Position numbers and translations under genes: made by a program
In this document: in pieces, positions 10,201 through 56,400 of the stretch
Numbering within the stretch: the stretch's first letter is position 1
Layout: every line of letters begins with the position of its first letter
Notes under the pieces: model-generated
What the model saw: the letters and a program-made list of their open reading frames with translations, nothing else
Database searches by the model: none
Told to the model about the DNA's origin: nothing
DNA from: Owenia fusiformis
Lineage: Eukaryota > Annelida > Polychaeta > Sabellida > Oweniidae
Assembly: GCA_903813345.2 (NCBI GenBank)
Contig: CAIIXF020000005.1
Coordinates: 14,013,375-14,077,374 of the forward strand
Reading direction: 5' to 3'
Length of the DNA stretch: 64,000 nucleotides

Positions 10201-13200
10201 ATGATTGAATCAGTGTATGTTATTTTGAAATGTTTGGTTTGGGCCTAGTTTTATATTTGAATTATGGGTCAAATAGAACATCCTATAATTTTTGTGATAT
10301 CATTTTAATCAACTCGTTGATATTATTATCTGCACTCATTTGCTATGCTCACTCGTCGAGCTATTGATATCAGCTTGTGGATAAAAATGATATCACTCAA
10401 AATCATAAGATATACTATACATATATTTACCAATAAACTTCATATACAATAGATATTTTCTGTCCCAGATTATACTGATAAAGGTTTGAATATTGTAGCT
10501 AAACAATATGCAGCAATGTGTCTAATGCTGGTCAAATACAAAAAAAACAGATTGTCTTTTTGACAATATCTTTTTAGATGTATTTTCTAATAGGCATTAT
10601 CCAAGCAATAGCCTTTAATTAAAGTGAACACAAGTTAATCTTGTAGCCTTTGAGATTTTTGTACTTAAATGATCTATTTAAAGATAGGAATGGTAGAATG
10701 ACCTATCAATGATATAATATAGTACTATAGTCTTCTTGGAGTAATTAAGGTAGGCACATTAGAATGAGATTATAGATCAGTTTGCCATTGCTTTGAATAG
10801 AATTTCTGAAAACAGGCAAACTAATTTAAAAAAACTTCAGGAAAATTTATTACATATTACATATATGATTTTAACATGGAAACAGTGGGAAAGTTCATCA
10901 AAACATGCTATTTTGGCGAATATAACCAAATGAATTCCTTGGTTTGTAAATGAAATAAGCAGATAAAATGTTTGATCCGTGGCGACTTGACAGCAGCTGT
11001 AGCTTCCCAAATTTAAAAGAAATATGTCTCAAAATATAGGGATAAGCAGTACGCTGTAGATTTTCTATATCGATCTTGTGAAGCTACAACTGCTGTATAC
11101 TCGCCATAGAGCAAATGTGCTTGAGACCTAAGTGTGACCATTTTCAACCCATTATTGGCAAATCATGAGTGATAATACCTTGATTACGTGTATATGCACA
11201 GTGTTACCTTTTTGTTTGATTCCATGCTGCCTTCCTGAATTAATCAGGATTTGACACGCTAAAAATGAAATTTAATTATTACGAGATTAATTGTTTTAAA
11301 TCTTGTTTTTAGGTTATTACAACCTACTGTACTTTTAGTACGCATTAGATAATCTTCTCCAGACATACAAAGTACATTCCAGTATGTGGTTAAAACATGT
11401 TAAAAAATAGACTAGATGCGAGTAGAAATAATCTTGATTTACATCATTAAATATTCAAAAGTCAGTAAAGTGATGTCATATTTGAAATCTAAATGTAAAA
11501 GTACACCTAGAAATCTGGTTTTGAAAAGTGTTTATCAACTATAAAAATATAATTTTTGGGGAAAATGTGAATTCTAGCTCGGGTAGATTCCCCGTATATT
11601 GGACAGCTTTTACTGGACATATTTTGATTTTCATAACTATTAGATACATAAGTGTGATATGAGAATTGAACCAATAAACTGATATTTAAATTAAAGTGAA
11701 CTTTCTACTCTCCCCGTCATGCTATCTGACCCAAATGAGCAACTTCGTTTTGAAACTGGTAACCACCTACTGGCATCTGAGTAATTGCATCCATGAAAAT
11801 CTGTGTAAGTTCTTTTGAAACATCTAAGAAACTATACCTCCCATTTGTTCAACCTATATATGGCGACACAGTTGCAACACATTTCCACCAATATCTGTTA
11901 CCATGGCAACAGTGTTGTAATCATATTTTAACCATTTTCAATGTAGTGACATTTTTTCATGTTAATGCCTTGTGTTTTAATCTTTTAGGAACTCCATATA
12001 CAGGTAGACCAGATACTGTGGGTGATTCTGAACTTAAACATCTTGATGCATCCAGCCCTGTGCCTTCACTAGCTTTGACCGAGGGTGACTACGGAGCACC
12101 TGCCCCTGATACGATGACATCTAGGTCTACAATGCAAAGGTAGGTCTCAAAGAGTCATCTGCTTTGCATGGGTTCACCTTCTTGCTCCTTCTTCAGTCAA
12201 AAGTACACTTTTCAGATTTTGTCAAATATGATGACAGTCATCAAATTTGAGATCTCGGATTGTCAAGATTGCATTTTTAAGGTCTGATTCATTTGTGAGG
12301 TTTAATTCTGTATGAAGTTCTTCTTTGATAATCAAATACATGTAATCCCATATGGCTTGCAATAATACAGTGACACAGTCACCACCACAAGTCTCAAACT
12401 TTTTTGTGGACTGTGTTCAGCTGTTGGTGGTTGGCAGTTGGTGATATTTTGCATGTTTATGCTTTGTTAGCTTTTAGATGACCCACCATTTCTTTTCATG
12501 AAGTGAAAAGGGAACCATCTGAGATATGTTTACATGCAATTATAGACACAAATAAACATGTCTGTTTTTAAACACAAAAGTCTGTCTTGAAACACAAATG
12601 TCTGTTTTGGAACACAAAAGTCTGTTTTGAAACACAAAAGTCTGTTTTGAAACACAAATGTCTGTTTTGAAACACAAATGTTTGTTTTGAAACACAAATG
12701 TCCATTTTGAAATCCAACTGTCTGTTTTGAAACATGAATGTCTGTTTTGTCTTTTATAGTGTTATAAGTGGAGTTGGAGAAATTGACATAGAAAGTAATA
12801 AACCAGTGACAGCTGGGAGACCCTCAGAAGACACGGACACATGTCCATATCTCTTACTGGACTGCAGAGATAGAGATGAATTTGATCAATGTCATATCAT
12901 ATCATGTAAGTAACTCTACACTGTTTAGTTAATATTGAATAGAATATTTCACTCTATTGAGGTGAATACCTGTGCATCTTTCACAAGTCATATTCCACGA
13001 AGCCCAGTTTCCTCCGCCCAATCAACAAAAACTTTAATCGAATGTTATGCTGATTTTTTGTTTTATTTGTGTGTACATTTTCAATTAATTTTAACTTTTC
13101 TTCGTCAGAAAATCCTTTAAATCTTTTCTTGTCTGCTATTTTGACTTACACTGAACGTGAAAAATTGAGGAAGATGGCATACTTATTTCAAAACCTTCAA

Positions 13201-16200
13201 AAAATGAGTAATAACAATGTGAAAATAATGGTAAAACGATATGTCTGTTCTATTTGCGTGTCTGCATCACGCTGATATTTCAAATGTCTGTTGCATGCAC
13301 AATGCTTTCTCATGACCTCATTGAATATGTACCATGGTAGAATAAAACTGAAACACCTTTTTTAGCGAGATCAATAGTGCAAGAAAACAGGCAAACAGTT
13401 CATTCATGGAACGAAGCATGAAACCTTCCACATATCATCAGAATACCATTCCCTTTGATTTAAGAGCCAGAAGCATTTTTGTGGTCCACTAGAATGGTCA
13501 AAAAAATAGTAAGAACCCCCTCCCACCAAAGCCCATGGGGGTGGGGAGATATAGGAATATTTTTTTCATAAAATTTCTACAGTTTTAGTGTGCTATTTTC
13601 ATGGTAAAGAAATTTTGCAAACAAAACAAGATGATTTATCATTGATTTCCATCATCGTTAAAGACTAATCATGGGCGACGCCCACTTTTCGTACCTTGAA
13701 CATTTAGGTTATTAAATCTCTATCATGGGTTGAACAAATGAATGCAATTCAGTTTTCTGGATAACACCAGATACCTTTTTGATGCTAGGTGCTATAATTA
13801 ATCGTAGCATTTGACTTTTTAAAGGCTTACACCATATCACAACCCTGTTTAGAAGAAGAAAGCAAGCAACAAACGTCCCAGATCTACAACATGTATCCAC
13901 TATTCTATGTACATGTATGTTGAGTCTCTATACTCTCCTGAAGAGAACCTATGCTACAGATACAACTTTCCAGAATTTAGATGATGATGTGCTTAAACAG
14001 TTTGATGAATGGTGTGCTGACCCGGTGCCTAAACAGTTTGATGAATGGTGTGCTGACCAACAGAATGTACCAGTACCAGTGAACATTTAGGCTATTAAAC
14101 CTCTTTCATGGTTTGAACCGGTACCAGAAGGGCCGCCACAGTCACAGCCTGCAGTCTCTAAATTCTCAAGAGAGCCTATACTACATATACAGCTGTCCAG
14201 AATCTAGATAATGAAGTGATAAACAGTTTGATAAATGGTGTGCTGACCAACAGAATGTACGAGTCTTTAAGTTTTGGTTTCCGATTATTTGAATTGAAAT
14301 ACTGTGCCTTAACTAAGTGTGGGCTATCAGAGAGGGAAATTTCCCTCTTTATCTCTAGTCAATGAGCAATCTTATCTCCTGGTTTTTTGTTTTTTGACCT
14401 TGTCAATATGTTTGCTGAGTACCAGTTCAGTATATCATCAGAACTCAAAGTTCAAAAATGGATAGCTTTTGGAAAAGTAAAAAATTAGAGATATCTCACT
14501 TCCCATGAAATTGCAGCTGCCCTTTGACATGGTAGGACTATGTGTCTCCCCTTATTTCATGCCCCAACAGGTTCAGACACTATATCTGGATTCCAATCAT
14601 TGAACATTTTGTTGAGATTTTATACAATAGAGACAACAATGAAATAACTGTAAATGCTGCAAGACAAGAAATGTTCACAAAGAAAACAACTCAAATTGAG
14701 AACATCCCACCATAAGTTGCATAAGTTGGTTCCAGACAATTATACCTATGTCAGTCCTCACTTCACCCTCACAATTGAGTTGGGAATCCATAACCACAAA
14801 GGCTGGGAAAATAATTTGGGTGCCAGTGTGGAAAACATTGCCCAAGCCCCAGATGCATGCCAAATGCTAGTAAAATGCAGCTGCAAACAAAAGTGCTCAA
14901 CAAAAAGATGCAAGTGCTTTTTTGTCATTCTAGTGAACCACAAAAATGGCTCTGGCTCTTAAATCAAAGGGTGTCCTGGTGATATCTGAAAAATTGCAAA
15001 TGCCCCCTCCAATCAAATCCTGGGGGGAGGGGAGGGAAGTATTTTTTGTTGATTTTTTTTAATATGATCTATATTCATTTTTAGTATGTTATTTTCAGTG
15101 TATAAAAACAATTTTCAAGATTGCATCCATATTTCTCATGGATATTTAGAGGTTATGTCACTATCGTGGCATATATGCCCGAGGTCTCAGTGATATATGG
15201 CCCGACCTTGGGAGGGACATTGATCTCTGAGAACCGAGGACATATGCGCCACGATAGTGACATAAACGATTTATAACATACCTATGATGATGTGGACTGG
15301 TCAGAGAGTACCGTTTTCTTATAGAATTGACAAACAAATGGTTTGAAAATGATTGAAATGAGTTTAGAAAAATTGCTCGCGCAGTTTTATCTTCGATTGA
15401 TTGGTTATGACGTCAGCGCCTTGACCAATCAGAAAGTTAGCGGGCGCGGGCTTTTCAAAACTTATATTGGCCCGCTGTCTTGAGTACACTTTGCACTATA
15501 CATCATCATAGGTATGTTATAATCATTGTTAAAGCCTGACCAAGGGCGACGGTCACTTTATCAACATGTTAATATACAAGTTAATGAGTCTTCTATTGTG
15601 AATAGAAAAATTACCTAATAAGGCTGAATAAAATTGATAAGATTAAGTCAGTTATTTATGTTAAGATGATAATTTCTTTAAGTAAGTCAATTGAAAGGCC
15701 ACATCCCTTTTAGATATAAAGATATAATAATATATAATTCATAATTAATGATATATTATTTTGGCTTTTAATGAGAGCACTTTGACTAATTGATACAAGT
15801 TACCTTATTAGGTATCTTAACTGCAGTTCAAATATCCTATTTTGTGCATTTAAGCACTTCAACACTCTATTATTATTATCACTGAGCTAGGTGTCATGTC
15901 CATTACAATCCTGCATTTTACTAGCGTTTGGCTTGCATCTGAAGCTTGGGGCAATGTTTTCTCCACTGGCACCCAAATCATTTTTCCAGCCTTTGCTGGT
16001 GTAGTGTCTGAACCTGTGGGAGCATGAAATAAGGGGAGAACATAGTTCTATCATGTTGTATCAAGGGCAGCTGCAATTTCATGGGAAGTGAGATATTTCT
16101 AATTTTTTTTTCCAAAAGCTATCCATTTTTGAACTTTGAGTTCTGATGATATACTGAACTGGTACTCAGCAAGCATATTGACAAAGTCAAAAAACGAAAA

Positions 16201-19200
16201 ACCAGGTGACAAGCTTGCTAATTGACTCAAAGAGGGAAATTTCCCTCTCTAATAGCCTACACTTAGTTAAGGTACAGTATTTGGATTCAAATAATCTGAA
16301 ACCAAAACTTAAAGACTGGTACAATCTGTTGGTCAGCACACCATTTATCAAACTGTTTATCACTTCATTATCTAGATTCTGGACAGCTGTATATGTAGTA
16401 TAGGCTCTCTTGAGAATTTATAGACTGCAGGCTGTGACTGTGGCGGCCCTTCTGGTTCTAGTTCAACCCATGAAAGAGGTTTAATAGCCTAAATGTTCAG
16501 CATATGAAAAGTGGGCGTCGCCCATAACTAGTCTTTAACAACTTTGAAAATCAAAGAGAAACCATCTGGAAATAAAGAGGAAAATTCTCCTGTCCTATAG
16601 CCCTCACATAGTCAAGGCACAGTATTTCAATTTGAATAAGCAGAAACCAAAGCTTGAAGACTGGTACATTCTGTTGGTCAGCATGGCATTCATCAAACTG
16701 TTTAGGCACTTGGTCAGCACACCATTCATCAAACTGTTTTAGCACATCATCATCTAAATTCTGGACAGTTGTGTCTGTAGCATAGGTTCTCTTTAGGAGA
16801 GTATAGAGACTCATACATGTACATAGAATAGTGGATACATGTTGTAGATCTGGGACATTTGTTGCTTGCTTTCTTCTTCTAAACAGGGTTGTGATATGAT
16901 GTAAGCCTTTAAGAAGTCAAATGCAAAGATTAATTATAGCACCTAACATCAAAAAGGTATCTGGTGTCATCCAGAAAACTGAATTACATTCATTTGTTCA
17001 ACCCATGATAGAGATTTAATAACCTAAATGTTCAAGGTATGAAAAGTGGGCGTCGCCCATGATTAGTCTTTAACAATGATGAAAATCGATGATAAATCAT
17101 CTTGTTATGTTTGCAAAATTTCTTTACCATAAAAATAGCACTCTAAAACTGTAGTATGACCATATTCAAAGAATTTTTTTTATGAAAAAAATATTCCTAT
17201 ATCTCCCCACCCCCATGGGATTTGGTGGGAGGGGGTACTTACTATTTTTTGATCATTCTAGTGGACCACAAAAATGGCTCTGGCTCTTAAATCAAAGGGA
17301 ATGGTATTCTGATGGTATGTGGAAAGTTTCACGCTTCGTTCCATGAATGAACTATTTTTGCACTATTGATCTCGCTATTTAAAGTGTGTGCGAAACTATA
17401 TAGAGTGTGCAGGTGTCCGTACTGTGGGACTATAAATAGGCTCAACCAAAGTTCAGATAGGTGTGAGAGGACAGTCAAAACCCATGCTAAACAATGAGGA
17501 GACAATTCTGCCAACAAACCAACAGGTCAATTAAGATTATGGAAGCAACGAGACAGTCAAGTCACAAGCATTTAGGAAAATCTAGAATTATTTTGTATTG
17601 CACGAAATGTTCAATACATACACACCTTCAATACAAATAAACCCTTTTAATCCGAAAATGTATACACTTTTGTCAACGTTGCTAATTTTAGTGTGTCTCT
17701 TTAATGTTAATCAAATCTCTATAAGTAGAACACCTCCTTAAAGTAGAACACTTTTAAAGTAGAACACTTTTGAGGGTGTTTGACTTTGCTATTTTCTTGA
17801 GTCTGGATTCTATTACTTGTATTATCAGATTATGCTCTTTAAGTAGAACACCTCCTTAAAGTAGATCACTTTAAGGGTGTTTGACTTTGCTATACTTAAC
17901 TGTTGAAAAATATTTTCTTGAGAAGATTCTACAAGTGTATTACTTGTATTATCAGATTATGCTCTTTAAGTAGAACACCTGCTTAAAGTAGAAGACTTTT
18001 AAGGGTGTTTGACTTTGCTATACTTAACTATTGAAAAATATTTTCTTGAGTAGATTCTATTGCTTGTATTATCAGATTATGCTCTTTAAGTAGAACACCT
18101 CCTTAAAGGGTGACGTAGACTTTCCCGTACAAAAACAAAATGGCGGTTAAATGGACTAGTTGATCATTAGAAAATTAGGGGTGTTTGATAATCAACAAGG
18201 CCAAGGTTTTTTAATATTTTGTTTATTTACAAAAAGTACGTTTCGCATTAATACGCGTTTGGGGTCTAGAATTTTGGACATTTGATGAAGCTGTACATAT
18301 ATTATTTGTAACTTGGGGCTGCATTAATTAGTAATTGCATATAACATTTGTGAGGATAGTTTAAATGTGATTGACAGAGAACATTTACTACCAGACTTTA
18401 ACGCTTCCTTTAGTGGATTTATGAATTGATTGATTTTTGTGGAAACACAATACGTAATTAATTTTGGGATTATAAGAAATAGATCGATTAACAAGGTAGG
18501 CCTGTCAAATCTATATTACATCGTGATGGATTTTAAATAGGTACCTCATATCGTCGAATCAATTCAATACAAGATATTATCATATTTTGCAGATAAAGAT
18601 CACAAAACGAAGAGTTTGATTAAAATATGTATTGGTACATGTAACAAAATAATATATGTACTGTAAAATAGACAAGCATTGTGTGTTTCAGTATAATAAT
18701 AAAAATTGCAGCCACAATTGTTTCAAATATTTGTAGCTTTTTCAAGATTTTTTAATTTTTCCTAGTCCTTCGCGTGGGGTCCCATCGTCTTTGGGCGTTG
18801 GTACCCGGTGTTGTTTCCTATTAACATTTTCGTTCCAGTCAAGGATAAATAGATCTGTCCTAAATCTGTACGCCACTTCACCGAATGATTGTTTCTTTGG
18901 AGCAAATGAGCAGAGTGCTCCATTCGCAGCCTCAATATAAAATGTTGAAAGGCCGGATAAAACAAGGTGTGGCTTTTTGTAAACTATTGAATCTGTTACA
19001 AAATCAATGAGGAGACGAATGGCATCCGGGTTTGTGATGATAACTCTTGAGGGCTGATAGCTTCTGTTTTTGTTACAAGGTGAGCTCAAGCGGCAATTGT
19101 CGTGGTTACCCTGATAATGTAGCGGGATGGCATCGAGACTGTCAGTAAGATTATTTTCGTCTCCACCACAGTTCATAATAGAATAAATGAAATGATTTTT

Positions 19201-22200
19201 TACTCCGTCAGCTTTGTCAAATAGTTGTGGATGCCAGGTTTTCCCAATATTGGTCTTTGTACCTTTGCTGATTTTACTAAATTTTTTCATTACACTTTTA
19301 ATCACGTGCCATAAATCTAATTGTTCGTTGACATTTTCGTCTTTTATGATTTTACTGATCTGTTGATTATGATCATGAATGTTGCACTTTATTTTCACAT
19401 CGTTACTTTTAAAATGTTCATAAATTTTCTTTGTGGCAACCGCTTCGTGTTGCTGCGCGGTTACACAAATTGATCGGGATATAACCTCAGAGGCCACAAT
19501 CTGATGGGTGCTATGGTCGATTGCAAACGTGTTTGAGTGGGTGGCATTTCTGCAGGCGCTGTACGTTGCATCTGTTTCTATTGTAAGACCATCAGGACTG
19601 TCATTTGAGGCTACTTGAAGACACTCCGATATAGACAGGAATCGCATTTGGCTTGCTGCCTCAGACATGACAGGTTTACATACATCAATGAGACTTCTTG
19701 GAAGCTGTCCGATGTCGAGTGATTCAGCAAAACGGTTGTACTGATCTAAAAGTAAACCACTGGATAAGAAACTTTGTGCAGCTTTGACGTTCAGAAGGAA
19801 TCTGGGGTTTGCAGTACCTGTAGGATTGTCATATAGATATGGCGAGGACTTCCATTTCAACGTCTGGTGTTTGGAATCCAGAGAATAAATCCCCACATGA
19901 ATATATGTTGATTCCAGAGTAATTTGTGGAGGTGATTTTATCTTTTTGGAATCAATCATGTAAAATACAGTATCGATCAATTTCTGTAAAGCAGTCGAAC
20001 ATGTTAGAACGGGTTTTTCTGATTTCGAAATGTCTTTCCCAACGGTATAGAACGGTTGAAAATTTATTGGCGTACTAGTACCTTCTGAATCGCACACTGA
20101 AGGTTCGGCATGGTCTAGTAAAGTTGTAATGATGTCCTGCATGGAAGAGATACCAGTTGCAGATTTAAAACTCGCAATGCGTGCGTTGAAATTGTCCAGC
20201 TCGACTTTAGATGCGAAATAGCAGTCTATGTTTTTTCTGAACTGTTTCCTTTTCTTCGGGGGTGGTCCATTTGTGTCCATTCTGAAAAATAAAAAAGAAG
20301 AATTAGGCTGTGTGGCTGTCCAAATTAAAGTACAAAAATGTACTATTCTGATTATTTGTATAGGACGAACAGAAGATAATAGAACAAACAGTGGACACAA
20401 CATTGACAGGGCTTGCAAAGTTATAACTAAGAATTAGACTCAAATAAATGACAATAAAATATAATGTAGCCTATCTTACTTTCAACATGGCATTTTTACA
20501 AACAAACAATCGTTTATCCTAAACAACACTCAAGTAATGCAATTATTGGTCAGTAAATGTTATATCAAACAAATGTGTTACTTACTATTGTTGATTCTGC
20601 AATCACTGTTACTACAATGTGTAGCTGGTATGGCAATCTCGTGGTTGTTTGAGGCATGCTTTAGTTGAGCATCCGACTGAAAATATACATACAAGTATAT
20701 CATGATCCATGATGTACTAAACATATATTTCATTTATTTTATAGAATTTATTAAATCCTCGATATTAGCAGCCATTGATGTTCCAGGTTATCAATATTTC
20801 ATACCAAGTACAATGATATCAAGGTTGAAAGAAAAATTCAAACGTTTTGAAACTAACCAAACAAAATTGCTTGGCCTACTAGTGTATTTGTTTACATCAT
20901 ATTAGAGCCTTCAAAACGTATTAATTTTCTAATCAAAACGCATTCAATTCACAATATTGCCTAAACATTTCAACAACTGCACAACTTATATCACTGGAAA
21001 TCGATACAATTACAAAATATACTCACTGCACTTCTTGCATGCCCCGCTTCTAATATCTAACGATCCATGCACATGTTACATGCTCTCTCCCCTTAAGTAG
21101 AAATCCGGGATCGTTCCTTTTATACTAAACGGTGACCAACACCAACAGAGCGCGTTCGATTTGCTAAACGATATGCGTCAACCTTTAAAGTAGAACACTT
21201 TTAAGGGTGTTTGACTTTGCTTTACTTAGCTTTTGAAAAAACTATTTTCTTGAGTAGATTCTATTACTTGTATTATCAGATTATGCTCTTTAAGTAGAAC
21301 ACCTCCTTAAAGTAGAACACTTTTGAGGGTGTTTGACTTTGCTATACTTAACTATTGAACACTATTTTCTTGAGTAGATTCTATTACTTGTATTATCAGA
21401 TTATGCTCTTTAAGTAGAACACCTCCTTAAAGTAGAACACTTTTAAGGGTGTTTGACTTTGCTATACTTAACTATTGAAAACTATTTTCTTGAGTAGATT
21501 TTATTACTTGTATTATCAGATTATGCTATCTAAGTAGAAGACCTCCTTAAAGTAGAACACTTTTAAGGGTGTTTGACTTTGCCAAACTTAACTTTTGAAA
21601 ACTACAATGTATTTTCTTGAGTAGATTCTATTACTTGTATTATCAGATTATGCTATCTAAGTAGAAGACCTCCTTAAAGTAGAACACTTTTAAGGGTGTT
21701 TGACTTTGCTATACTTAACTGTTGAAAACTATTTTCTTGAGTATATTCTATTACTTGTATTATCAGATTATGCTCTTTAAGTAGAACACCTCCTTAAAGT
21801 AGAACACTTTTAAGGGTGTTTGACTTCTACAGGTTTTGCTGCACTTAACTTTTGAAAATTATTTTCTTGGGTCAAGATTCTATAACTTAGATTATGCAGT
21901 CTTATCTGACCATATGTTACATTACAGTTAAATGTTAATTGAAATATGTAACGTCTGAAATGTCAGCATAATGTTAGATTATAGAGCTGATACCTGACTT
22001 AGTCTTGATAGCATGTGTTGTGAAGTAAGAGTTTGTTTTGAAGTTGGTTATTGTGAAAAAATCATTTTACTCACTTATTTTGTGTGTGAAGGTTTAAATG
22101 TTGATTTTAACCTCTTGACTACCTGGAGTGAGAAGATTTCTCATCACCCCAGAAATTACCTTGAAACCCAGAGTGACGAGAAAATCTATCACAATTCTTT

Positions 22201-25200
22201 TTACTAAAATTGGTCTTATTTGAACAATTTTTATCCAATTTACACAAAAAAATTGTTTTAAAATGTGTAGAAGTGATCTCTGTCATCTTTTAGAGCCTGG
22301 GATTCAAGAGGTTAAAAAAACTTTCATTATTAAATCATTATTTTTTGTTTTTATTCAATGTCAAAGCAAAACAAAAAATTTATTTCATTATCAAACTTCT
22401 TATTGCCTCTCAGATCAGAAAGATCTAAAATCTCAATTAAACTTTCTGTCTGGGACCGAGTGATACAAATCAAATTCAGAAAATAAAAGTTAATGTCTCA
22501 TCATGATTTAACCTTTGAAACATTAATTGATGTACATAATCAATACCTTTAACATTCAAAATAGCGTTTTACCAGAACACACAATGTTCATAGATGCAAT
22601 TAACAAAAAAATGCCATGGTCGCAGTTATATTGCCCTAAACGTATATATAGTAGAAGTTTATTTTATTGTATGGTACAGTATGTTAAAAGAATGATTGGA
22701 ATTAAATCATTGTACATCTTGGGAAGTCTGTCCTTAGTGCTAACATCGTTAATGGTAATGTACACGACATTTCCTGATGTGCAGTTGACGCAACTTTTTC
22801 ACAATAAAAGGCAAGAGTTTCAACGGGATTATTCTAAAAACAGTAATTCGACAACTTGTCTTATTTTGGTGTGGACCTTATGGTGCACGCATACCTATCG
22901 CCATGTTGGATACGTCTTTGGGAATTGCTCGGAGAGTCGTTGTGAAATGACAGTAGATAAGACGCGTATAAATGACGCAGCTGCTGTAATATTTTGGGGA
23001 CAGAGCGAGGAATTTGTTTCAGGAGATATCCCAGCTTACCATGCTCCTTCCCAAATATGGGTGTTCGTTACACGTGAGGCCGTTCTTAGGGGTTACTTTC
23101 AGAAAATGAATTTTGCGAAAACGAGATTTGCCATTAACCGTACCATGACCTACAAGCTAGATTCCGATATACCCTGGCCCTATGGTTACATGACATCCCA
23201 GCCAGGTCAAATGCATGAATTAAAAAGAAAACCACGCATCGCAACTTGGCTGGTGAGCCACTGTGATGCGCAATCAATGCGAATGTCTTACGTTAAAGAT
23301 TTACAAAGATATGTCTCCGTGGACATCTACGGAAGATGTGGTAACCATTCAATATGTAGTAGAGATACTAAAAAAGATAGAGACGGCTGTATGAAGTATT
23401 TAAGCGATAGCTACATGTTTTACATAGCATTTGAAAATTCTGATTGCAAAGATTATATCACAGAAAAAGTCTGGACTAATGCGTTATTACATAAGATGAT
23501 ACCTGTCGTTAGAGGCAGAATGACGAACTTCAGTGCACATCTTCCCCCGGGTTCATTTATCCATGCAGATGAATTTGCGACCCCTGAACTCTTAGGACGG
23601 TACCTTATGAAAGTTCATTCAAACCCTACATTATATTCTAAATATCACGCTTGGCGTAAAACTATGTCAATTCAGGCTGCTGGCCAGACTTTCTTCAAAT
23701 GTGCCTTATGTGAAGCGATACACAGGTTCAGGGCCAGTCAAGAGAAAAAGACTGTTGACCTGTTGGAATTCCTAGATGACCGGAACCAATGCTTCAAATA
23801 CAGAAGTGATCTAGAAGAAAAGTTCTTCAAAACTGTTTAATCAAAATTTTTCATAATTGCTTAATATTTTGCTTTAACATATTACCAGTTAAATAACATA
23901 TACATAAATACTTTCACTAATATACTTATGTTACTTCATTCTAATAGATATTAAGGGATTCAAAATAGAGCCTTGCCTTACGCTGTATTTATGATGTATT
24001 TTCCACCACCTCACTACCTGTATCTTTATTTGATTCAATTACAGATCCCAAAATAAAGTTGAAATGTCTAATAAACTCATGTTTAGTGCCATTGACAATG
24101 ACAATACATTCCATAGAACAAAATTTGATATATAGAAACATTGATGACATTGCATTTAATGTGATGACCATTTTGAGAAAAGTTTGCTATTTTGTCTGAT
24201 TTTTTTAACAAATTAACATGTTTCAGTGACAATTGCAATGACTTGATGGCTCTCACTCTCTCTCTTGAAACTCCATGATAAACACATTTACATACATTTG
24301 CACTATATGTACATGTATTGTGATATTGTCACCAGATGCATAGATTGTATCCTGCTAAACAAATAGTGTGAAATAGCCTGGTATTGTGTTTTACTAGGGA
24401 TGATCCTGAAGTTCTGATAAAAATGATCTTATTTAAAAGTTTACCATTCATTTTCCATAATATTTACAGTAACGGGGACATTCATTTCCTCATAAGTTAT
24501 AAAAGATTAAAATGCTGGTAAGGAATATTTCTGAAGTTATAATGGTAACCATAATAACGCTATAGCTGAAAGGGGTAATCTTTGTGAAATTTAAAATATT
24601 GCAAGATTGTTTAATTCTACAAATGGCTGTTCATATAGAAACTGCTATGTTAATGCCTCATTCTCACGAGCAAATATTGTTTTTGTGTTACCCAATGGCC
24701 ATGCTGTCAGGTACTTGTAATGCATGAGTAAATATTGTTCTTGTGTTTCCAGCTTTATGTTACCCAATGGCCATGCTGTCATGTACTTGTAATGCATGAG
24801 TAAATATTGTTCTTGTGTTTCCAGCTTTATGTTACCCAATGGCCATGCTGTCATGTACTTGTAATGCATGAGTAAATATTGTTCTTGTGTTTTCAGCTTT
24901 ATGTTACCCAATGGCCATGCTGTCATGTACTTGTAATGCATGAGTAAATATTGTTCTTGTGTTTCCAGCTTTATGTTATCCAATGGTCATACTCTTATGT
25001 ACTTGTAATGCATGAGTAAATATTGTTCTTGTGTTTCCAGCTTTGTGTTACCCAATGGCCATGCTGTCACGTACTTGTAATGCATGAGTTAATATTGTTC
25101 TTGTGTTTCCAGTTTTGTGTTACCCAATGGCCATGCTGTCACGTACTTGTAATGCATGAGTAAATATTGTTCTTGTGTTTCCAGCTTTGTGTTACCCAAT

Positions 25201-28200
25201 GGCCATGTTCTTGTGTTTCCAGCTTTATGTTACCCAATGGCCATGCTGTCATGTACTTGTAATGCATGAGTAAATATTGTTCTTGTGTTTCCAGCTTTAT
25301 GTTATCCAATGGTCATACTCTTATGTACTTGTAATGCATGAGTAAATATTGTTCTTGTGTTTCCAGCTTTGTGTTACCCAATGGCCATGCTGTCACGTAC
25401 TTGTAATGCATGAGTAAATATTGTTCTTGTGTTTCCAGCTTTATGTTACCCAATGGCCATGCTGTCACGTACTTGTAATGCATGAGTTAATATTGTTCTT
25501 GTGTTTTCAGCTTTATGTTACCCAATGGCCATGCTGTCACGTACTTGTAATGCATGAGTTAATATTGTTCTTGTGTTTCCAGTTTTGTGTTACCCAATGG
25601 CCATGCTGTCACGTACTTGTAATGCATGAGTAAATATTGTTCTTGTGTTTCCAGCTTTGTGTTACCCAATGGCCATGCTGTCACGTACTTGTAATGCATG
25701 AGTAAATATTGTTCTTGTGTTTCCAGCTTTATGTTACCCAATGGCCATGCTGTCACGTACTTGTAATGCATGAGTTAATATTGTTCTTGTGTTTTCAGCT
25801 TTATGTTACCCAATGGCCATGCTGTCACGTACTTGTAATGCATTAGTAAATATTGTTCTTGTGTTTTCAGCTTTGTGTTACCCAATGGCCATGCTGTCAC
25901 GTACTTGTAATGCATGAGTAAATATTGTTCTTGTGTTTCCAGCTTTGTGTTACCCAATGGCCATGCTGTCACGTACTTGTAACGGTGAACTGAAGGGAAT
26001 GCTGCAGTATGTATCCTTAATAGAAAAAAAATACAACATACATTGTACAAGCCAGATTTTGTCAAGCTTATACCTGAGCTATCTTATAAATAAACCCGAG
26101 GGTTCACTGTATATATATCTTGACTGGGATCCTTGGCTCACTTGCGGTACTGTGATATTTCAACCATCTGTGTGACCGGGGCAAACATTTTAACAATTCA
26201 ATATTCAACTTTCCTTGCTCAGTGCATGTCATGCTTTTATGATTATTCAAGCAACTGTGTAACTTGGGAAATCATTGGTATACATAATTTTTCAATATTC
26301 AATATTCAACTTTCCTTACTCAGTGCCTGTCATGCTACTGTGTTTATTCAAGCAACTTTGTGACTGGGGCAAACATTGGGATCCATAATTTTTCAACAAT
26401 TCAATATTCAACTTTCCTTGACTCTACTCAGAGAAACCAAGAAGGTAAAATAATTGTGATCTATGATGATGATGAGAGAAGGGCATCTAAAGCTGCTACA
26501 ACACTGGTAGAGAGAGGCTACACTAATCTGTTCATGTTATCAGGAGGTAAGTTCTGTATATGAGTATTGTGTAGTTTAGGGTGGCATAGAGTGGTGACAG
26601 GTCATCTCAACCCCAAGTTAACTCATCCCAGTAAAACTCAACCCCAAGTCAACTCAACCCCAGTAAAACTCAACCCCAAGTCAACTCAACCCTGTAAATC
26701 TCAACCCAAAGTCAACTCAACCCCGTAAAACTCAACCCCAAGTCAACTCAACCCCAGTAAAATTCAACCCCATTCAATTCTACATTTCGGGCTGAAAGGT
26801 TTCTCATTTAGGAGACAATGGGATACAGATAATGTGGCTGCTCAACTGTGGCAACACCTTAACCAACCAACTATATCAACCAAGAAATATAAGTGTATCA
26901 TAACAGCCTCTGTTTTTGTAACTGATTTCTGATGTTACACTTTTGTATTTGCAACTGAGTTCTGACATTTTGTCATCTTATACCATGTTTTAGAAAATCA
27001 ATTTCCGATCAAAGTGTGTTCTATGGATTGTGAGTTTGTATGTGCATGGTTCCTAGGTACCAATCATTCTTATTTCTCATGAGCTTATATGATCATAATA
27101 CATAACCTTAATCTTCATAGACGGTCTAGACATTGACCTTTCTGGCCTTAAAATATGGTTGGGTTTCTTGTCAGGAACCATGCATATTCAATTTCATTAC
27201 AATGGTCAAGTTTTTTATTTATTATTTATTTTAGGAAGAGACAGACACAGAGATGAACGAATGGATATACATACCACCTGTTATTAAGCAATTTAGAACT
27301 GTAACACCAATATGTTTTTTTCTAGGTCTAAAAATGGCATGGAAATCATTCCCCAAGGGTCTTATCACAGGGACAGTCCCTTTCAGTATCTCCAACCAGA
27401 AAACCAAACAAGTTCTCCCTGCCACGCAAAAAGAGTTTGACAATGATGATATAGATGAACTACTGCTACAACTTGACAACGTATTAGAAGATAAAAGTGT
27501 AGGAAGTGAGTACTATATACAGTCAGCGGTAATCCACTCTAGCGTCGCTTTGAAATACGACAGTTGTGCGTCACATTTTTTTGCAAAAATATTTCTTATT
27601 TTCGTTGTATCCACTCCCTCATTTCTACATTATATCTGCGCATGCTCACATATTTAATTAGCACAACAAAATAAATAAATGGCTCCTGACAGCGAATTGT
27701 CAACTCGTAAGCTTTTCAGCTAATTTCTACATTTTTCAAGATGAATTTCATAATATGCATAGTGTCGAGTGGTCGAATCATGTTTTAGAATATTGAAGGT
27801 GTTGTTTTTTTCGAGGGGAGTGCGCAGGAGATTGAATCTGAACGAAAGACACCAGGTCGTAACAGAGACACTTGTTTGTCGTGTTAGCATGCTACGCATC
27901 TGGGCTCATCTGTGTACATCATTATTTGCGACACTTACAGTTCACATACCAGGGGACACTTGAGTGGATTACCACTGACTGATATAAGAACATGTACACA
28001 ACCTAGCTCCAGAAAATATAAATATGTTTGATTATTTCAAAATGTTTGAAAGATCTAGATTTTTATGTCACCACCACAACCTTTTTGAGGTGGCGGTTGG
28101 TCTTCAGCAATCGGTAGTTGGTGTCGGCATCTAAAACAAGTGGCAGGTGGTGATATTTTGCATGTTAATGCCTTGTTTATCTTTGTAAGATTTAAGTTTT

Positions 28201-33533: not shown

Positions 33534-36500
33534 TCAATATGGGTTCGCCTGACCAATAAGCCGCATAGTAACTTGACGTTGCCTATTTATGGGTGGATGT
33601 TGAGGGTGTCCCAAGGTCACATATCTCTGGGGAGCGTAGTTGGAATCATTCTGAGCATAATCGTTCCATTGGTAGTTAGAATTCACTGTTGGTGAAAAGT
33701 TATTTCTGAAAGAGTTTGATTGGTTGAAGTTGTAACCAGAGTTGGAGTGAGTTGCATGGTTATTGGGGAACCCTGGTGCATTGGGAGTTTGGTTAAACAT
33801 GGGGCCACTGTTGTAGTTATGTGTGTTACTGTGGCCAGGGCTGTAAGTATTGCCACCATAAGGCTGAGGTGATTTTGTTGAGATTTTATATCCTCGCTTA
33901 TATGCCCATGACTTGACCTCAGGTTTCATTAATGGTGGCGGCGGTGGGATTATCGGTGAAGGAGCTTTGTGTGCTGGTGAATTAGATCTTCCAGATGATC
34001 CTCGGGATGCAGGTCTAACAGCAGGTGATTCAGATCTTTTTCTCTTCGATCTTTCAGCTGGAGATTCAGATCTCTCCCTCTTGGAGATCAAAGCAGGGGA
34101 TTCAGATCTTCTTAACAGGGATGCTCTTGATCGATTATCTGAATCTTCAGATTTTTGAATTGGCACAAATCCTATATTCGCACTTAACTTTTGTAAACTT
34201 TCCAGTGGATGCTTATGGGAATTTACACATCCATCAATATCAGCTATCGGGGCTTCACCAAACTCAGAATTCTGGGTTGTAGAGCTAACTTCCTCATCCT
34301 CATTCATCTTACCTGTTGACGTCTTGCGATCTTTGGATAACCGTCTTGGAATATTTCTACCCCATGCTTCGGCCACATGAGTCAGTAGCAGGTTGGACAT
34401 GCGTCGATGAGCAGTCATGTCCCAATGCACATCATCCTTTACGCGACGATGAAGTTGGCGACGGAAATAATAATGAAGATCGAGGACGTCATATCCATGT
34501 TCCACCACAACTTGTTTTGCGAAAAAATTCGCCTCCATGATATCCAATCGTAGAGTCTCATTCATAAACTTAACCTCCTCGATGAGTACTCCCCCATATG
34601 CTTTTTCCCCGACAGGAAGTGCAGTATTCCATATAAGGAGGCATTGGTCATCCAGGACTTCATCAAATCGGGTGAAAAGTCGCTCTAGGTTAGTCTTGTA
34701 TTCAGGTACAGATCTGGTAATACCGTACCTGGAAATTCATAAATGGTGACTTATACTTTCATTGAATTAAACAATAAATAGAGTTACACTAGAAAATAGA
34801 TAATTTTAAATCCTTGATGCCAAAGACGACAGACTCATAATGCACGAATGAATTATCTTAATTATCAAGGTTGAAATCATGACACTTATTGTTGTTTCTA
34901 CACCTCCTCATAATATTCTTCAACATCAGTATGATGGGTTGAAGCATACATTAATACTTAATAATGACAGTGTACTTAAGACAGTCCATGCATTCAGGTA
35001 TTTACAATAACATATACAGTGTTCTCCATAGGGTTTTTTCTCAAGTTGGTGTAAAATTCTTATTTTCAGGAGTTAGGCCATTAGTCAAAATATGCCCATT
35101 TTTCATGTTTTTTCTCATTTTCAAGTGGGTGCATTTTCAGGTGGGTGATTGCGATCACTTGCCTAATGCTAGGGAGATCACTGACATGTACAACAATTAT
35201 TATAAATGCAATATACAAATCTTATTGGTAAATACCTGGTAACATCCCACAAACAGGAGTTCATAATGACCAAGTCTGGTTTAGGCTCTTCAATGAGGTC
35301 ATCTAATATAGTTTCCATGTATGGGCCATAGCAACGTGTTAGGTAATAAAATCTGAAAGTAAAATTGTAAAAAAATAAAATAAATGAGATCATCCAGGAT
35401 AGTCTCCACTTTTATACCCTTCTTCCATTAGACTCCAAATCTTCAGCCTGATATTTGATAAAAACTGAGAATGATCTTCCACTTGGTTTACCGGCCTACT
35501 TGCAAAGATATAGTATTACACAGTAAGTTATTCCGTAGGTTCAAGGTGTGCAGACTCGTAGCCAGTGGGTCAAAATCATGCAGTTTTTCACCATTCTGAG
35601 CATTTCTCATGTGTCACCCCCCTAGAATTTTATAACCCCCTTGGCAAAACTTGGGAAGATAATTAACTTTATTGTTTGTTCTCCCCTAGGGGAGTGGGCC
35701 GATCCTGGAGGTACTGCAATACCAGGCCAACCCATGGCAAAGGTGGAGCAAGCCCCTTACACTTCGCCCAGGTACAAAAATCAGTTTAATATCGAAGATG
35801 TCCAATGGACATCGTATCAGATATTAAGCTGATAAGAACAGATACTACACTTTGATCTTAGCCAAAAGGCCGAGAAGCGATACCCATAACACTTCCAGAC
35901 GGCGAACTGACCTAAAAGAAAATTCAAATGTGATGGTTTTTTAGTCAGGACATTGCACTTCATTTCTAGCTTCAAATAAAATATTTCACTATTCATTATC
36001 GAATGAACATTTTGAAATATATCGCCACATTTTTCTCTAAATTATAATATTTTTCTTGAATTTGTGAACAAAATATAATGAAAACTATGCAGCAAAATAA
36101 TTACACATTTAGCATATACACACTACTATACCTAACACCTAGAAATGCATAAGATACTTTGTTTGTCTAATTGAATTGTTTAATATATTTTTGAAAGTGC
36201 CTTACTAGCATCTAATTTTCAACTGATAAACCATTCATAAGGAACAGACAAATAAAAACAAATACATAATCATTACTAATAAGCCAAATGGGTTGCTCAT
36301 GAACACCTAATGCAAGGTATAGTAGTGTGATATATAAAGATAACAAATTGACTGTTAAGGACTGATTGCCTCAACCTAAGCTACTTAACTGTTAAGCATT
36401 CAGATAACCACATGTGCAGACCAGTCTCACATGTTAAATAAATGTAAAGACCAATCTAACATGTTAGATAAACAAAGTAACTAAGAAAATTACAAATAAA

Positions 36501-39500
36501 AATTGGCAGGGAAATCTACATTCTACAAACATAATCTAAATATTCCTTACACCAATTTTAATTTTTATCAATTTTTTAAAGGTCACCGCAACATATTAGT
36601 TGCACAGCTGCACATGTACATTTTTCAAAGCTTCAATATTTCAAGGACAGTTTGTATCATAGTCCATCCATAAAATAGGTTTATGATGTTGCAATGATTT
36701 TGTTGTGGTGAATTATTTAGAGCTAGATTCACTTAAATATTTCTAAATCATACAAAGTGCTTGTATGTTTGTGAACATGGCCAACATTTCCGACATTCCC
36801 TCCCAACAAGGCATAACAGGGGATTTATGTTTGTACTTCCTGACGTAACATAACAAAATGTCACCACCTTGTTAGTTCTTGCAAATGATTCCAAAAATAT
36901 AACAACTGTTGTATAACAACACGCCCTGAGCACTAATCGCCTGATTGAATGCTGGTCAAAAGTGGAGGCCATTTAACAATACATAACCACTGCTAAGTGT
37001 TGAACTATCTAAAGACAAAAACATAAGAAATGACACTTCAACAGCAAATAAATTGTTTTCATATTATTTCACCTAACAAAAATCCTATTAAGTTTTGATT
37101 TGATTTGATTTGAAAACTATATTTCGAGAAATTTAGTCCCAGCAAACTTAAGAAAATTCTACATGGACATATCTATGAAGTTGAGAGGAATAAAATAGGC
37201 TTTTATTTAAGTCTGAGAGGAATAAACATGAAAACCTTCAATCTTGACCTGGAAAAAATGTTCAAAAGGTGGTCTGGTGCGCCAATGCTATTATCGAAAA
37301 ATACAATTGTTTCCTGTTCTTCAAATCTTCCAGTGGACCAGTATGTTGAAAGTAACAGCTACTTTAATACAACAAGCTACTCCTGAGGTCTGGGGGTTTC
37401 ACTTAAATATACCTCTTAATACCTATGTGCCATACCAAAGGCCACCTTTTGGGCGTTTACCAGGTCAATCTACTCTCAAGATTGAAGGTTTCCATGTTTA
37501 ATTCCTCTCAGACTTTTAAAAGGTAATTGCATATCTCTAAACATCATAGATATGTCCATGTCAAATTTTCTGAAGTTTGCTGGGACTAAATTTCCTGAAA
37601 TATTGTGAAATTGACTGAAAATCAACTTTTACAGTGGTTTGTCCCAGGCCTCGGCAACTGATTTAACCAATTTAATGCCATTTTTTGTAAAAAAGGTACT
37701 TTCTTGAACAATTCTCTATGGTTTTTTCCTCTCATGAGCCGAAGATACCAAATTATTTAGAGTGAACCCCTTGGTTCTGAAGTAGATTGCACTTGTTGAC
37801 ATTGAGCAGGTTATAATATCAGCCCTGCTGCTTAAATTCCAACTGAAAATCAATCTTCTCAGTTTGTATCAAATAACAGGCTGAATATCCAAGGATCTTA
37901 AGGGAGGAGGGAAATTAACTTTATTGTTTGTTCTCCCCAAGGGGAGTGGGCCGATCCCGGAGGTACTGCAATACCGGGCCAACCCATGGCAAAGGTGGAG
38001 CAAGCCCCTTACACTTCGCCCAGGTACAAAAATCAGTTTAATATCGAAGATGTCCAATGGACATCGTATCAGATATTAAGCTGATAAGAACAGATACTAC
38101 ACTTTGATCTTAGCCAAAAGGCCGAGAAGCGATACACATGACACTTCCAGATGGCGTACTAAGCTAAAAGAAAATTCAAATGTGATGGTTTTTTAGTCAG
38201 GACATAGCACTTTTAAAGCTAGCATCAAACATAGATTCACTTTGTTTTTCATGAAATTAACATTTTCAATTTTATCACCACATTTCTCTCTAAGTTATAA
38301 TATTTTGCTTGAATTCCCCAGTAAAATATCTAAATAATATGAAGCCAAATGGCAGAAGGAAATGTGTTAGCAGGAGGAGATGTGTTAGCATTCAAACTTA
38401 TCAGTTAAACATATGAGCTGAGTACTCAATGCCACTTAAACCAATAACCAATCAAAGCGATCAAAATGTACTGCTAATTTAAGTGCTGCTATCTTTTGAA
38501 CAGTGTGATATTTATTAACATGTTGGTGCTGCCATCTTTCTGAAGAAGTGGTTTTATTCACATGTTTATGTGGTCTATTTCCTAAAACAAATATAAAAGG
38601 CCATTAAAAGCACAAATAAATCAAAACAAACTAATAAAATGAATATAATTAATCTACTTGGATGACATGTTAACAGATTTTATGTATTTAAACTTGAATA
38701 AGAATAACTAATATGCTAAGCTTATTTGAAGGAACTTTGTATATTGCATAATTTTGACCCATTGTGTTTTATATACTATATTAAACACAATTCATGGCTC
38801 CAAATACTATAATAGTATCATAATGCAACAGCTAATGTTAATTCCATGCTATTTCTCTCAAAAATTTGAATATATGATCAATTTTCTTTCATTTCAATTC
38901 AATTTTGACTACATTTATACTTATACCAGTTGACCTCTCAGTTTCTTATTTCACGGTTTCTATTTTATTTTTCATATTACAACATGACACCATGGTCAAT
39001 GAGTCCAGGGCTCGTGCCAGGCTTTTAGACTGTGGCGCAGCACCACACTCTATTTAGCTCCCTCCACACCCTATTGGCAAATCATGACTGTTTCCACAGT
39101 CTAAACTTGACTGAATATACAACAATAACATGTAATGAAGGACCCACGGTCCTATGCTCACACAGTTTGGAACCTTCAGAGGAATTTATATCCTGACTTT
39201 CAAACAAACTTTCGAACTTTGAGAAACTAAGATAGCATAGTTGTGTGACCTAGTTTGATGACCTTTGACCTTGAAAATTTTACTTATTCAGAGCTCAGTA
39301 AGGTCTTTTGTGATTAAGCTGACCAAAATTTACATCCAAAAATCAATTTGAAAAATCAACTTTTTTGACCTTTCGAAGGTCACTGAAGGTCAAGTAAAGG
39401 TCAAATCCTAAAACTAATGTCAGATTTGAACTCCTGGCAACTTCTTTTACTGTTTTTTGACGTCAAATATCTCAAAAATGGTAAAAATTTGATGCTGACA

Positions 39501-53441: not shown

Positions 53442-56400
53442 CTACATGACAAACACTTTCTCTGCTTCATCAAATGAATAAATGTCTTCAGTCCTAGGAC
53501 ATACTAATGTTCCTTCATTATCACCTGCCATCTGTACCAGGGACTGGAATGAAAGAGAATATATGATTTACTTCCACATACATGTATTAATACAAACAAG
53601 GCAAAAACATGTGACTAGAATAAACCAATATCTCATGAAATTAATTTTAGGCTTTTGCTTCAGGTATATAATTTCATTAATAAACAAAATGACGATATAG
53701 CACATAAACATGTGACTAGAATAAACCAATATCTCGTGAAATGAATTTTAGGCTTTTGCTTCAGGTATATAATTTCATTAATAAACAAAAAACCGATAAA
53801 GCACTTTGAAAAGATGCAATAAAAGGATCAAACAAATCCTTCTTCTTTATTTTGGTCAAACATGTTTAAAATCAAACTGAGGTCTTCTGATTGAGCTTCA
53901 GATCTAATACACCAGGTTCTTGCTACAACACGTTCTATTACGTATGTACATTTAGGTTTATTATATGGTACTTACATTATAGCCATACACATAACCATTT
54001 GGGAGCATCATAGGTGGATTATGTTCATTGAGAGGTTCAATATAGTCTATTATACAGTACTTACATTATAGCCATACACATAACCATTTGGGAGCATCAT
54101 AGGTGGATTATGTTCATTGAGAGGTTCCCCAGAGATAAAACACACAAGTCTTGATTGGGCACAATGTGCAGATGGAAGAGGTCTTGCAAGCTGGTTGAGA
54201 TGTTTTGTACAAACAGGACAATCAGCTTTCTTGTAGTCTGGACTGTTCTTGTAACAATGACTGGACAGGTTAAGAAAAATACATCACAGAAAGCTGCAGT
54301 TATGTGACATAATGGTATAAAATCTAATTTCTTCAACTCTGTTACTGACAAAGGTGATGGAGTAATTCATTCTTAAGAAGGAGCAATTGTTACTAAGTCA
54401 TCGGTAGACTCAAGACATTCCAATTCTGGTGTGTACAGAAAATGAAGTCTTTAGCTAACAGACCTGGAATGGTCTCATTGTGTGTTTCCTTAATATAGAT
54501 ATACACAAGATCAAGTATGTTGCCTAACACAGCTGGAGCAGCCTCAAATTGTTTTTCATTAAAGAGATATATTCCACTGTTTTTATCTTTTTGTATATAT
54601 CAAAGGATACGGTGTTTTCAATGCTGAAAGGCCAGACTGCAGAGTTACTGAGAATATTGATTGACTGTTCAGTTGATGGAGTTTAAAATTTTCAAATCTG
54701 AACTGTTGGACCAAACTCTGCCATCGACTCACATCTAGTAGGTCCTGAAAATAAACATTTTCATATATATGTTTTGAAATTACAAAAAAGAATTCGCCAA
54801 GACAAGCAAATATACAGTATCAGTCTAATAAACAAAATTCAATTTATTGAAACTAGTGATCCATTCATTTATGTGGATCAGTAAAACTGAAAGATTTCTT
54901 TTCTATTCAGTTGTCTCCCATAAAATTATCAAACTATGAAGTTTTTCATGATTTTTCTGATTTCCAAATCAATGCAAATGGGTTGTTCTAGGCATCTCAA
55001 ATGGTTTTAGCGGTCATTTGTTTTAATCCTGGCGAGATCAGTGTAAGCAGAGAAAAATTAAATACAACAAAATAAACTCACAGAGGCAGCAGTTTTTTTG
55101 TTGTTTTTTTATACATAAATTTATTCCTTTAGTTAATAATAATGGACATGCAATTGATTGCCAACGTTTTATAAAAAACATTAGCGGCAATTTTAGACCA
55201 TATGAATAGGAATGCATTAAAATTTTTAATTTATCAAAGTAATGGTATAACACATATAAGAAACTATAATCCCATGGGCCAGGGATGAGTTAACACATGC
55301 ATGCAAAAATCAGCCAAACCGATCACAGAGGCAGCAGTGAGGGTGCATTTTTAATATCATATGGTATATATCACATCTTACCTTTTAAGGTATGTCTTAC
55401 CGTATATGGTATGTCTTACCTTATATGGTATATTTTATCTGTACAGTAGGTCTTATCTTTTATGTTATGTCTTACAATTTATGTTGTGCCCTAGCTTATA
55501 TGGTATGTCTCACCTTTAAAGTATGTCTTACATTTTATGGTATGATGTCATCATCTTACCTTATTTGGTATATCTAACATTATATGGTATATCTTACCTT
55601 ATATGGTATGATTGTAGTACTGCTGGAAAAGGCGAGAAGTCCCATTACTCTTTGGACATCAAATAACTGTGCTTCTTCTAAATTAGTAAAATACTTTCTT
55701 GCATGTCTGGAATACAAAAAGGTCAAATTATGAGTTTTAAGATTTTTTATACTTTGTATTAGATCCAAATAGATTTGCAACAGGGTGGCATGTCATATTC
55801 AACTTTTTTTCTGAAAACATGAATGCTTTAAATGGTTAAAAAATGGTAAAAAAAAGTTTGAAAATCTATAAAATAAATGTGTCCCATAGAAAAAGCAAAT
55901 GGGTCATTTTTAGATTTAATAAATACATGTATAGAAAAGATGACTTGTTATAAGGTCGACCAATGAACAATTCATATATCTTTATTACTTTAAAATAAAT
56001 TTAAGACATTTTAGGAGCAGGGTTAGAGGTTTGAGCCATTTCAATTTGATTTGTCATTTTCTTACCTAACAGCCTCTAATCTTTTGTTGTTCCTTATAAG
56101 CTCTATGAACTCCTGTTGTCTCAAATTAAATTCTAGGGAACTCTGAAATTCAAAAACATCACATAATAATTATCTCATAAAGAAAAGCAATGCCAAGATG
56201 TATCAAATTCTATCAAATATGTTGTGAAGTGGCGGACAAGACTGCCAGATATCATTTCTCAAAATGGTTACCATACTTGAGAAATTGACGAAAGATAATG
56301 TCATCCTGACATGTATTTACAATATTATTGCTCTATTACTTCCTGAAGTTATAACAATTAACTAATAAAACGACACATATAAATGGGCTCCATTTTTCAA

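Follow-up and report, generated by a model that had tools for sequence, protein, structure and literature searches.

How is one 3′ splice site selected when near-identical copies of it, each followed by the start of the same exon, stand in series immediately upstream? This question is raised by a tandem array at the 3′ end of a CEP41 intron in a 64-kb stretch of Owenia fusiformis contig CAIIXF020000005.1 (hereafter the window), the one sequence on which our analysis is based. Our answer, to which we assign a probability of roughly two in three, is that the array is a minisatellite of the "mirage" type, that its decoy acceptors are spliced out with the intron, and that the last acceptor is picked by virtue of the complete exon behind it.

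The array comprises 19 tandem copies (cores at 24,688–25,950) of a 72-bp unit, which consists of the last 32 nt of the intron, AG included, and the first 40 of the 68 nt of the exon (positions –32 to +40). Core spacing and copy alignment agree with this composition, bearing out a first-pass annotation of the window, which had described the unit as intron end, CAG acceptor and first 40 bp of a 68-bp exon. The 19 repeats of that annotation are also found, with the correction that one unit is only 38 bp long: the start-to-start spacing is 72 bp in 17 of the 18 intervals and 38 bp in the other (25192 to 25230). Tandem Repeats Finder returns two 72-bp rows at 95–96% matches, and a junction-spanning 27-mer has 18 matches at ≤3 mismatches, with none of 100 dinucleotide shuffles matching. 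The AG is kept in 18 of the 19 copies, namely in 17 decoys and at the real acceptor; since copy 1 has lost it, being 14 bp shorter at that spot (counted by hand), there are 17 decoy acceptors and not 18 as first claimed. Only the last copy runs on into a complete exon, as had been proposed. The repeat unit spans an exon/intron boundary and many units keep their splice signals, as in a mirage. Exact patterns of the unit (47 and 30 bases) gave no matches in a prokaryote genome collection or in IMG/VR, as is expected for an animal gene. The coordinates are collected in Table 1.

The gene is CEP41, its exons encoding the rhodanese region in order and in frame. A human CEP41 probe gives colinear pieces at 1224–1289, 12758–12901, 25942–26010, 26432–26548 and 27325–27387. 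Independently of this probe, the joined exons match PDB entry 11yj_Y0, "Centrosomal protein of 41 kDa" (E = 6.1e-43, chain residues 142–272), in an alignment that is ungapped across the 68-nt exon, which upholds the earlier assignment of this exon to CEP41; they also match the Pfam Rhodanese family (4.7e-15). The GC content of the window is 33.9%, and that of third codon positions in the CEP41 exons is 32.7%. We scored seven exon joinings against human CEP41 (a slash marks the splice junction), of which the best, at 128 bits and with an open frame, uses the real exon and runs from TAT/GTATCC to CAG/AGA. Pairing GCA/GTATGT with CAGAG/AAAC is a lower-scoring alternative, in frame but two residues shorter (119 bits), while stops arise when the exon is skipped or when reading starts at decoy copy 18 and continues up to the 3′ end of the real exon.

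Table 1. Features of the CEP41 acceptor array and its surroundings (window positions; a slash marks the splice junction).
Feature	Position	Strand	Remarks
CEP41 exon upstream of the array	12760..12905	+	donor CAT/GTAAGT; final T begins a split codon
CEP41 intron, 13,037 nt	12906..25942	+	array at its 3′ end
Copy 1	24666..24720	+	exon part present, acceptor missing; left flank is single-copy intron
Copies 2–18 (17 decoy acceptors)	24721..25910	+	
First "exon" bases of decoys, copies 2–10	24753, 24825, 24897, 24969, 25041, 25113, 25185, 25223, 25295	+	
First "exon" bases of decoys, copies 11–18	25367, 25439, 25511, 25583, 25655, 25727, 25799, 25871	+	
Copy 8, shortened unit	25185..25222	+	38 bp (34 bp missing)
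Copy 19	25911..25982	+	intron end, real acceptor (AG 25941–25942), first 40 nt of exon
Real CEP41 rhodanese exon, 68 nt	25943..26010	+	donor TAT/GTATCC; overlapping GCA/GTATGT 4 nt upstream
Repeat of 101 bp, 3′ end of the following CEP41 intron (26011–26431)	26188..26431	+	no exon sequence in unit
Next CEP41 exon	26432..26546	+	donor GAG/GTAAGT

Many of the decoys closely resemble the real site. Ten of the 17 share the 23-mer of the real site (–20 to +3), and three (25041, 25367 and 25655) are identical to it over –32 to +40, with the identity extending from –71 to +40 in the case of 25655. Acceptor-local sequence thus cannot explain the choice between these three and the real site, and on the sequence evidence the selector must be the last position, the remaining 28 nt of the exon, the donor, or the wider context. 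RNA structure was considered in this role and set aside, the two-unit fold being no more stable than shuffled sequences (z = –0.52, with 49 of 200 shuffles folding at least as well).

Structures of this kind have been described before (the cited articles being represented here and below by excerpts). The name mirage was given to minisatellite-like duplications that span intron/exon boundaries in the globin and Adh3 genes of lancelets (PMC3087553), and further ones were reported in lancelet PGBD5 and TnC (PMC3902484), such that the lancelet genes concerned are Adh3, the globins BflGb6 and BflGb9, TnC and PGBD5. As in BflGb6, the CEP41 unit joins an intron 3′ end to an exon 5′ part, and its length of 72 bp falls within the range given for Adh3 (10–72 bp). 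The CEP41 array differs in the gene affected and in its 17 decoy acceptors, where the two BflGb6 haplotypes, unequal in length, contain 6 units and 3 units and PGBD5 up to 7 repeats. The authors of PMC3087553 take their Adh3 data, together with reverse transcription PCR on the globins, to suggest that regular splicing is undisturbed by mirages.

Two human polymorphisms treated in PMC2630376 offer further parallels. In CBS 844ins68, a two-copy analogue, a piece of the intron 7/exon 8 junction is duplicated in tandem and the more distal site is favored (the excerpt speaks of "donor" sites, where an acceptor would be expected at an intron 7/exon 8 junction); unlike the CEP41 array, it consists of a single extra 68-bp copy, and normal mRNA has been demonstrated in people. 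The 31-bp variable number tandem repeat of CBS, c.1444_1467+7(16_21), shares with CEP41 a high copy number and the crossing of an exon/intron boundary, but appears from its nomenclature to hold an exon end and a donor rather than an acceptor. A comparable arrangement is that of laboratory RNAs with a duplicated 3′ splice site (PMC5389562, where the design is credited to Reed and Maniatis 1986), in which an upstream acceptor is likewise followed by a truncated exon, of 14, 55 or 205 nt; these, however, are constructs with two sites, spliced in vitro. In β-globin test RNAs of this type the distal site was used exclusively.

Taking these parallels into account, the decoys, which lie within the 13-kb intron, would normally be removed along with it, and the last acceptor would be chosen through cross-exon recognition, being the only one with a complete exon behind it (a further 28 nt plus the donor region). 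Exon definition in this sense is the best available account of the choice of acceptor, and the array is probably mostly silent. The last 28 nt of the exon look rich in purines by eye and may contain an enhancer.

Several observations weigh against this account. The duplicated-acceptor RNAs of PMC5389562 were spliced inefficiently or slowly in vitro, so silent decoys should not be taken for granted. In the initial search with the human probe, the real exon reached 23.9 bits (E = 0.47), slightly less than the translated piece of decoy copy 17 (24.6 bits, E = 0.27); the 68-nt exon alone therefore does not identify the true copy, and it is the joinings that do so. Within the range scanned, 14–59 nt before each acceptor, the real acceptor has no full match to the branch-point consensus yUnAy, and six decoys have one, namely TTAAT at –21 (25113, 25511, 25583 and 25799) or CTTAT at –44 (25041 and 25367). 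Furthermore, on a position weight matrix (PWM) for human donors, a crude scale, the real donor TAT/GTATCC scores –4.85 and the overlapping GCA/GTATGT –0.94, compared with 5.10 and 7.59 for the neighboring CEP41 donors. In the region 20–259 nt downstream of the acceptor, no GT exceeds 1.5 either for the real site or for the two decoys checked, copies 6 and 15. No strong donor thus marks the real exon, and a version of the account in which a strong downstream donor does so is weakened by these low scores.

Two smaller observations concern the same signals. The end of the real exon, GTATGTATCC at 26006–26016, carries two overlapping donors 4 nt apart, both of them weak, of which the upstream one gives a frameshift and a stop when joined to the usual acceptor of the next exon. 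On the left flank of the array there is a CTCAC whose A lies 29 nt before the expected start of the exon part of copy 1 (by eye); a branch point left behind at this position is a lead only.

If a decoy were used, translation would end early: the CEP41 frame entered from a decoy runs into a stop in all 17 cases. The first-pass annotation rightly expected a premature stop from decoy use, but its TGA after 14 codons needs adjusting: counting the split Ser codon, the stop follows 15 residues in 15 of the 17 decoys, and comes later in copy 8, which is truncated (29 residues), and in copy 17 (39 residues). These stops admit a reading of the decoys as leaky or regulatory "poison acceptors", which would be used often enough to yield stop-containing, degraded CEP41 transcripts, with copy number tuning CEP41 output. 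This would fit the match of 10 decoys to the real site at –20 to +3 and of three over –32 to +40, the six decoys with the full yUnAy that the real site does not show in the scanned range, and the slowing of splicing in vitro by simultaneous occupancy of alternative acceptors, as reported in PMC5389562. Nevertheless, we consider it unlikely, given that lancelet mirages were reported without disturbance of splicing (PMC3087553, PMC3902484) and that the acceptors bear no sign of selection. With copies 1, 8 and 9 set aside, 11 of the 72 columns of the unit are variable, and by our own estimate it is likely that the two AG columns were spared by chance. Selection for acceptor retention was dropped as a candidate, as nothing beyond recent homogenization supports it.

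It had also been suggested that the short GTAATG in the decoys might serve as a donor and thereby produce 36-nt, frame-keeping micro-exons, which would add 12-residue repeats to the rhodanese domain. The motif CTT/GTAATG is indeed found at +36 in 16 of the 17 decoys, and the frame stays open with one insert (copy 15) or with all 16. As a donor, however, it is weak (PWM score –2.17, at the 76.6th percentile of 3,412 plus-strand GTs; U1 duplex –1.4 kcal/mol), and the CEP41 match falls from 128 to 119 bits with the one insert from copy 15, while with 16 inserts it is split into two segments, scoring 79.0 and 64.7 bits. We note that the real donor itself (–4.85) lies below CTT/GTAATG, such that this crude scale is insufficient to dismiss micro-exons on donor strength; weakly supported overall, they strike us as scarcely credible.

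As to the origin of the array, a stretch covering roughly the last 30 nt of the intron and the first 40 nt of the CEP41 exon would have undergone tandem duplication, followed by expansion and partial homogenization through unequal exchange. Variants are shared among the copies in repeated combinations, as in concerted evolution: over the unit, copy 5 is identical to 10, 7 to 14, 13 to 17, and 12 to 16 (these two carrying the consensus sequence), and copies 6, 11, 15 and 19 form one identical set. These sets uphold the earlier claim of exchange among copies, for which unequal exchange is the mechanism that the patterns suggest. Exemption of the units at the cluster boundary from homogenization is a feature of mirages. 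Here the leftmost unit, copy 1, has diverged, and the rightmost, copy 19, which is the front of the real exon, is identical to the inner copies 6, 11 and 15, consistent with the real exon front joining in the exchange. The rare changes said to be shared by copies 5 and 10 are in part exclusive: the two copies, identical over the unit, differ from the consensus at six positions, of which five are changed in no other decoy counted, whereas the sixth change is present in six decoys. Relative to the real copy, the decoy exon parts (copies 1 and 8 set aside) show distinct changes of which 5 are nonsynonymous and 3 synonymous, where 27 of the 117 possible changes would be synonymous; the decoy exon parts therefore look unconstrained as coding sequence, albeit on small numbers.

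The structured differences among copies also bear on whether the array is an assembly artefact, the true locus having one or few copies. A lancelet mirage was apparently misassembled in the draft genome, according to the authors of PMC3087553. Here, by contrast, the copies differ by point variants, by the 34-bp and 14-bp losses and by repeated multi-unit blocks, and an array of 1.3 kb is short for long reads, making an artefact very improbable, even if the copy number of exactly 19 may be wrong.

The array is real, and most details of the first-pass annotation were right. The phenomenon itself is already described, and the CEP41 array is a large further case of it, of interest for its size and because some of the competing sites are exactly identical. 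We found no published account of this array, in a literature search that was not aimed at CEP41 and had most subscription papers outside its scope. The choice among equivalent 3′ splice sites has so far been studied with built two-site RNAs (e.g., PMC5389562), and CEP41 offers 18 sites; three of its decoys match the real site exactly, well past the canonical 3′ splice-site motif, so that local site strength plays no part in the comparison with them. A more far-reaching reading, which we regard as decidedly unlikely, would see here a natural competition among 18 acceptors, in which identical sites are told apart by downstream sequence, last position or wider context and copy number acts as a dial on the efficiency of CEP41 splicing, possibly in a lineage without known mirages. 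The array also bears on the evolution of an exon start that shares unequal exchange with repeat copies.

Tandem repeats (Tandem Repeats Finder, merged by hand) make up 6.5% of the window, and others among them also adjoin splice sites. The 101-bp repeat of the next CEP41 intron holds three pyrimidine tracts, each followed by an AG (ends at 26222, 26323 and, the real one, 26431), and so places two extra pyrimidine-tract-plus-CTCAG sites ahead of the exon at 26432. A 20-bp array of 9.6 copies (12558–12749) ends 10 nt ahead of the CEP41 exon at 12760. On the minus strand, the end of a MAEA exon and its donor are duplicated once as an 89-bp unit (53959–54127), giving donors AAT/GTAAGT at 54064 and 53975, 89 nt apart and with equal PWM scores; this duplication mirrors, on the donor side, the arrangement seen in CEP41. 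The identity of MAEA follows from a match to PDB entry 8pjn (E = 1.3e-25), with a second exon near 58 kb (E = 2.2e-21). The CEP41 intron that holds the array further contains a fucosyltransferase frame (GT10; Pfam E = 2.7e-53) of 437 uninterrupted codons on the plus strand (22527–23837), nested about 0.8 kb before the array, and a minus-strand frame of 558 aa (18742–20418) with a match to Mutator-like transposases (Pfam E = 3.1e-9). Elsewhere in the window, two full-length U2 small nuclear RNA matches of 188 bits each lie on the minus strand, at 35689–35881 and 37941–38133.

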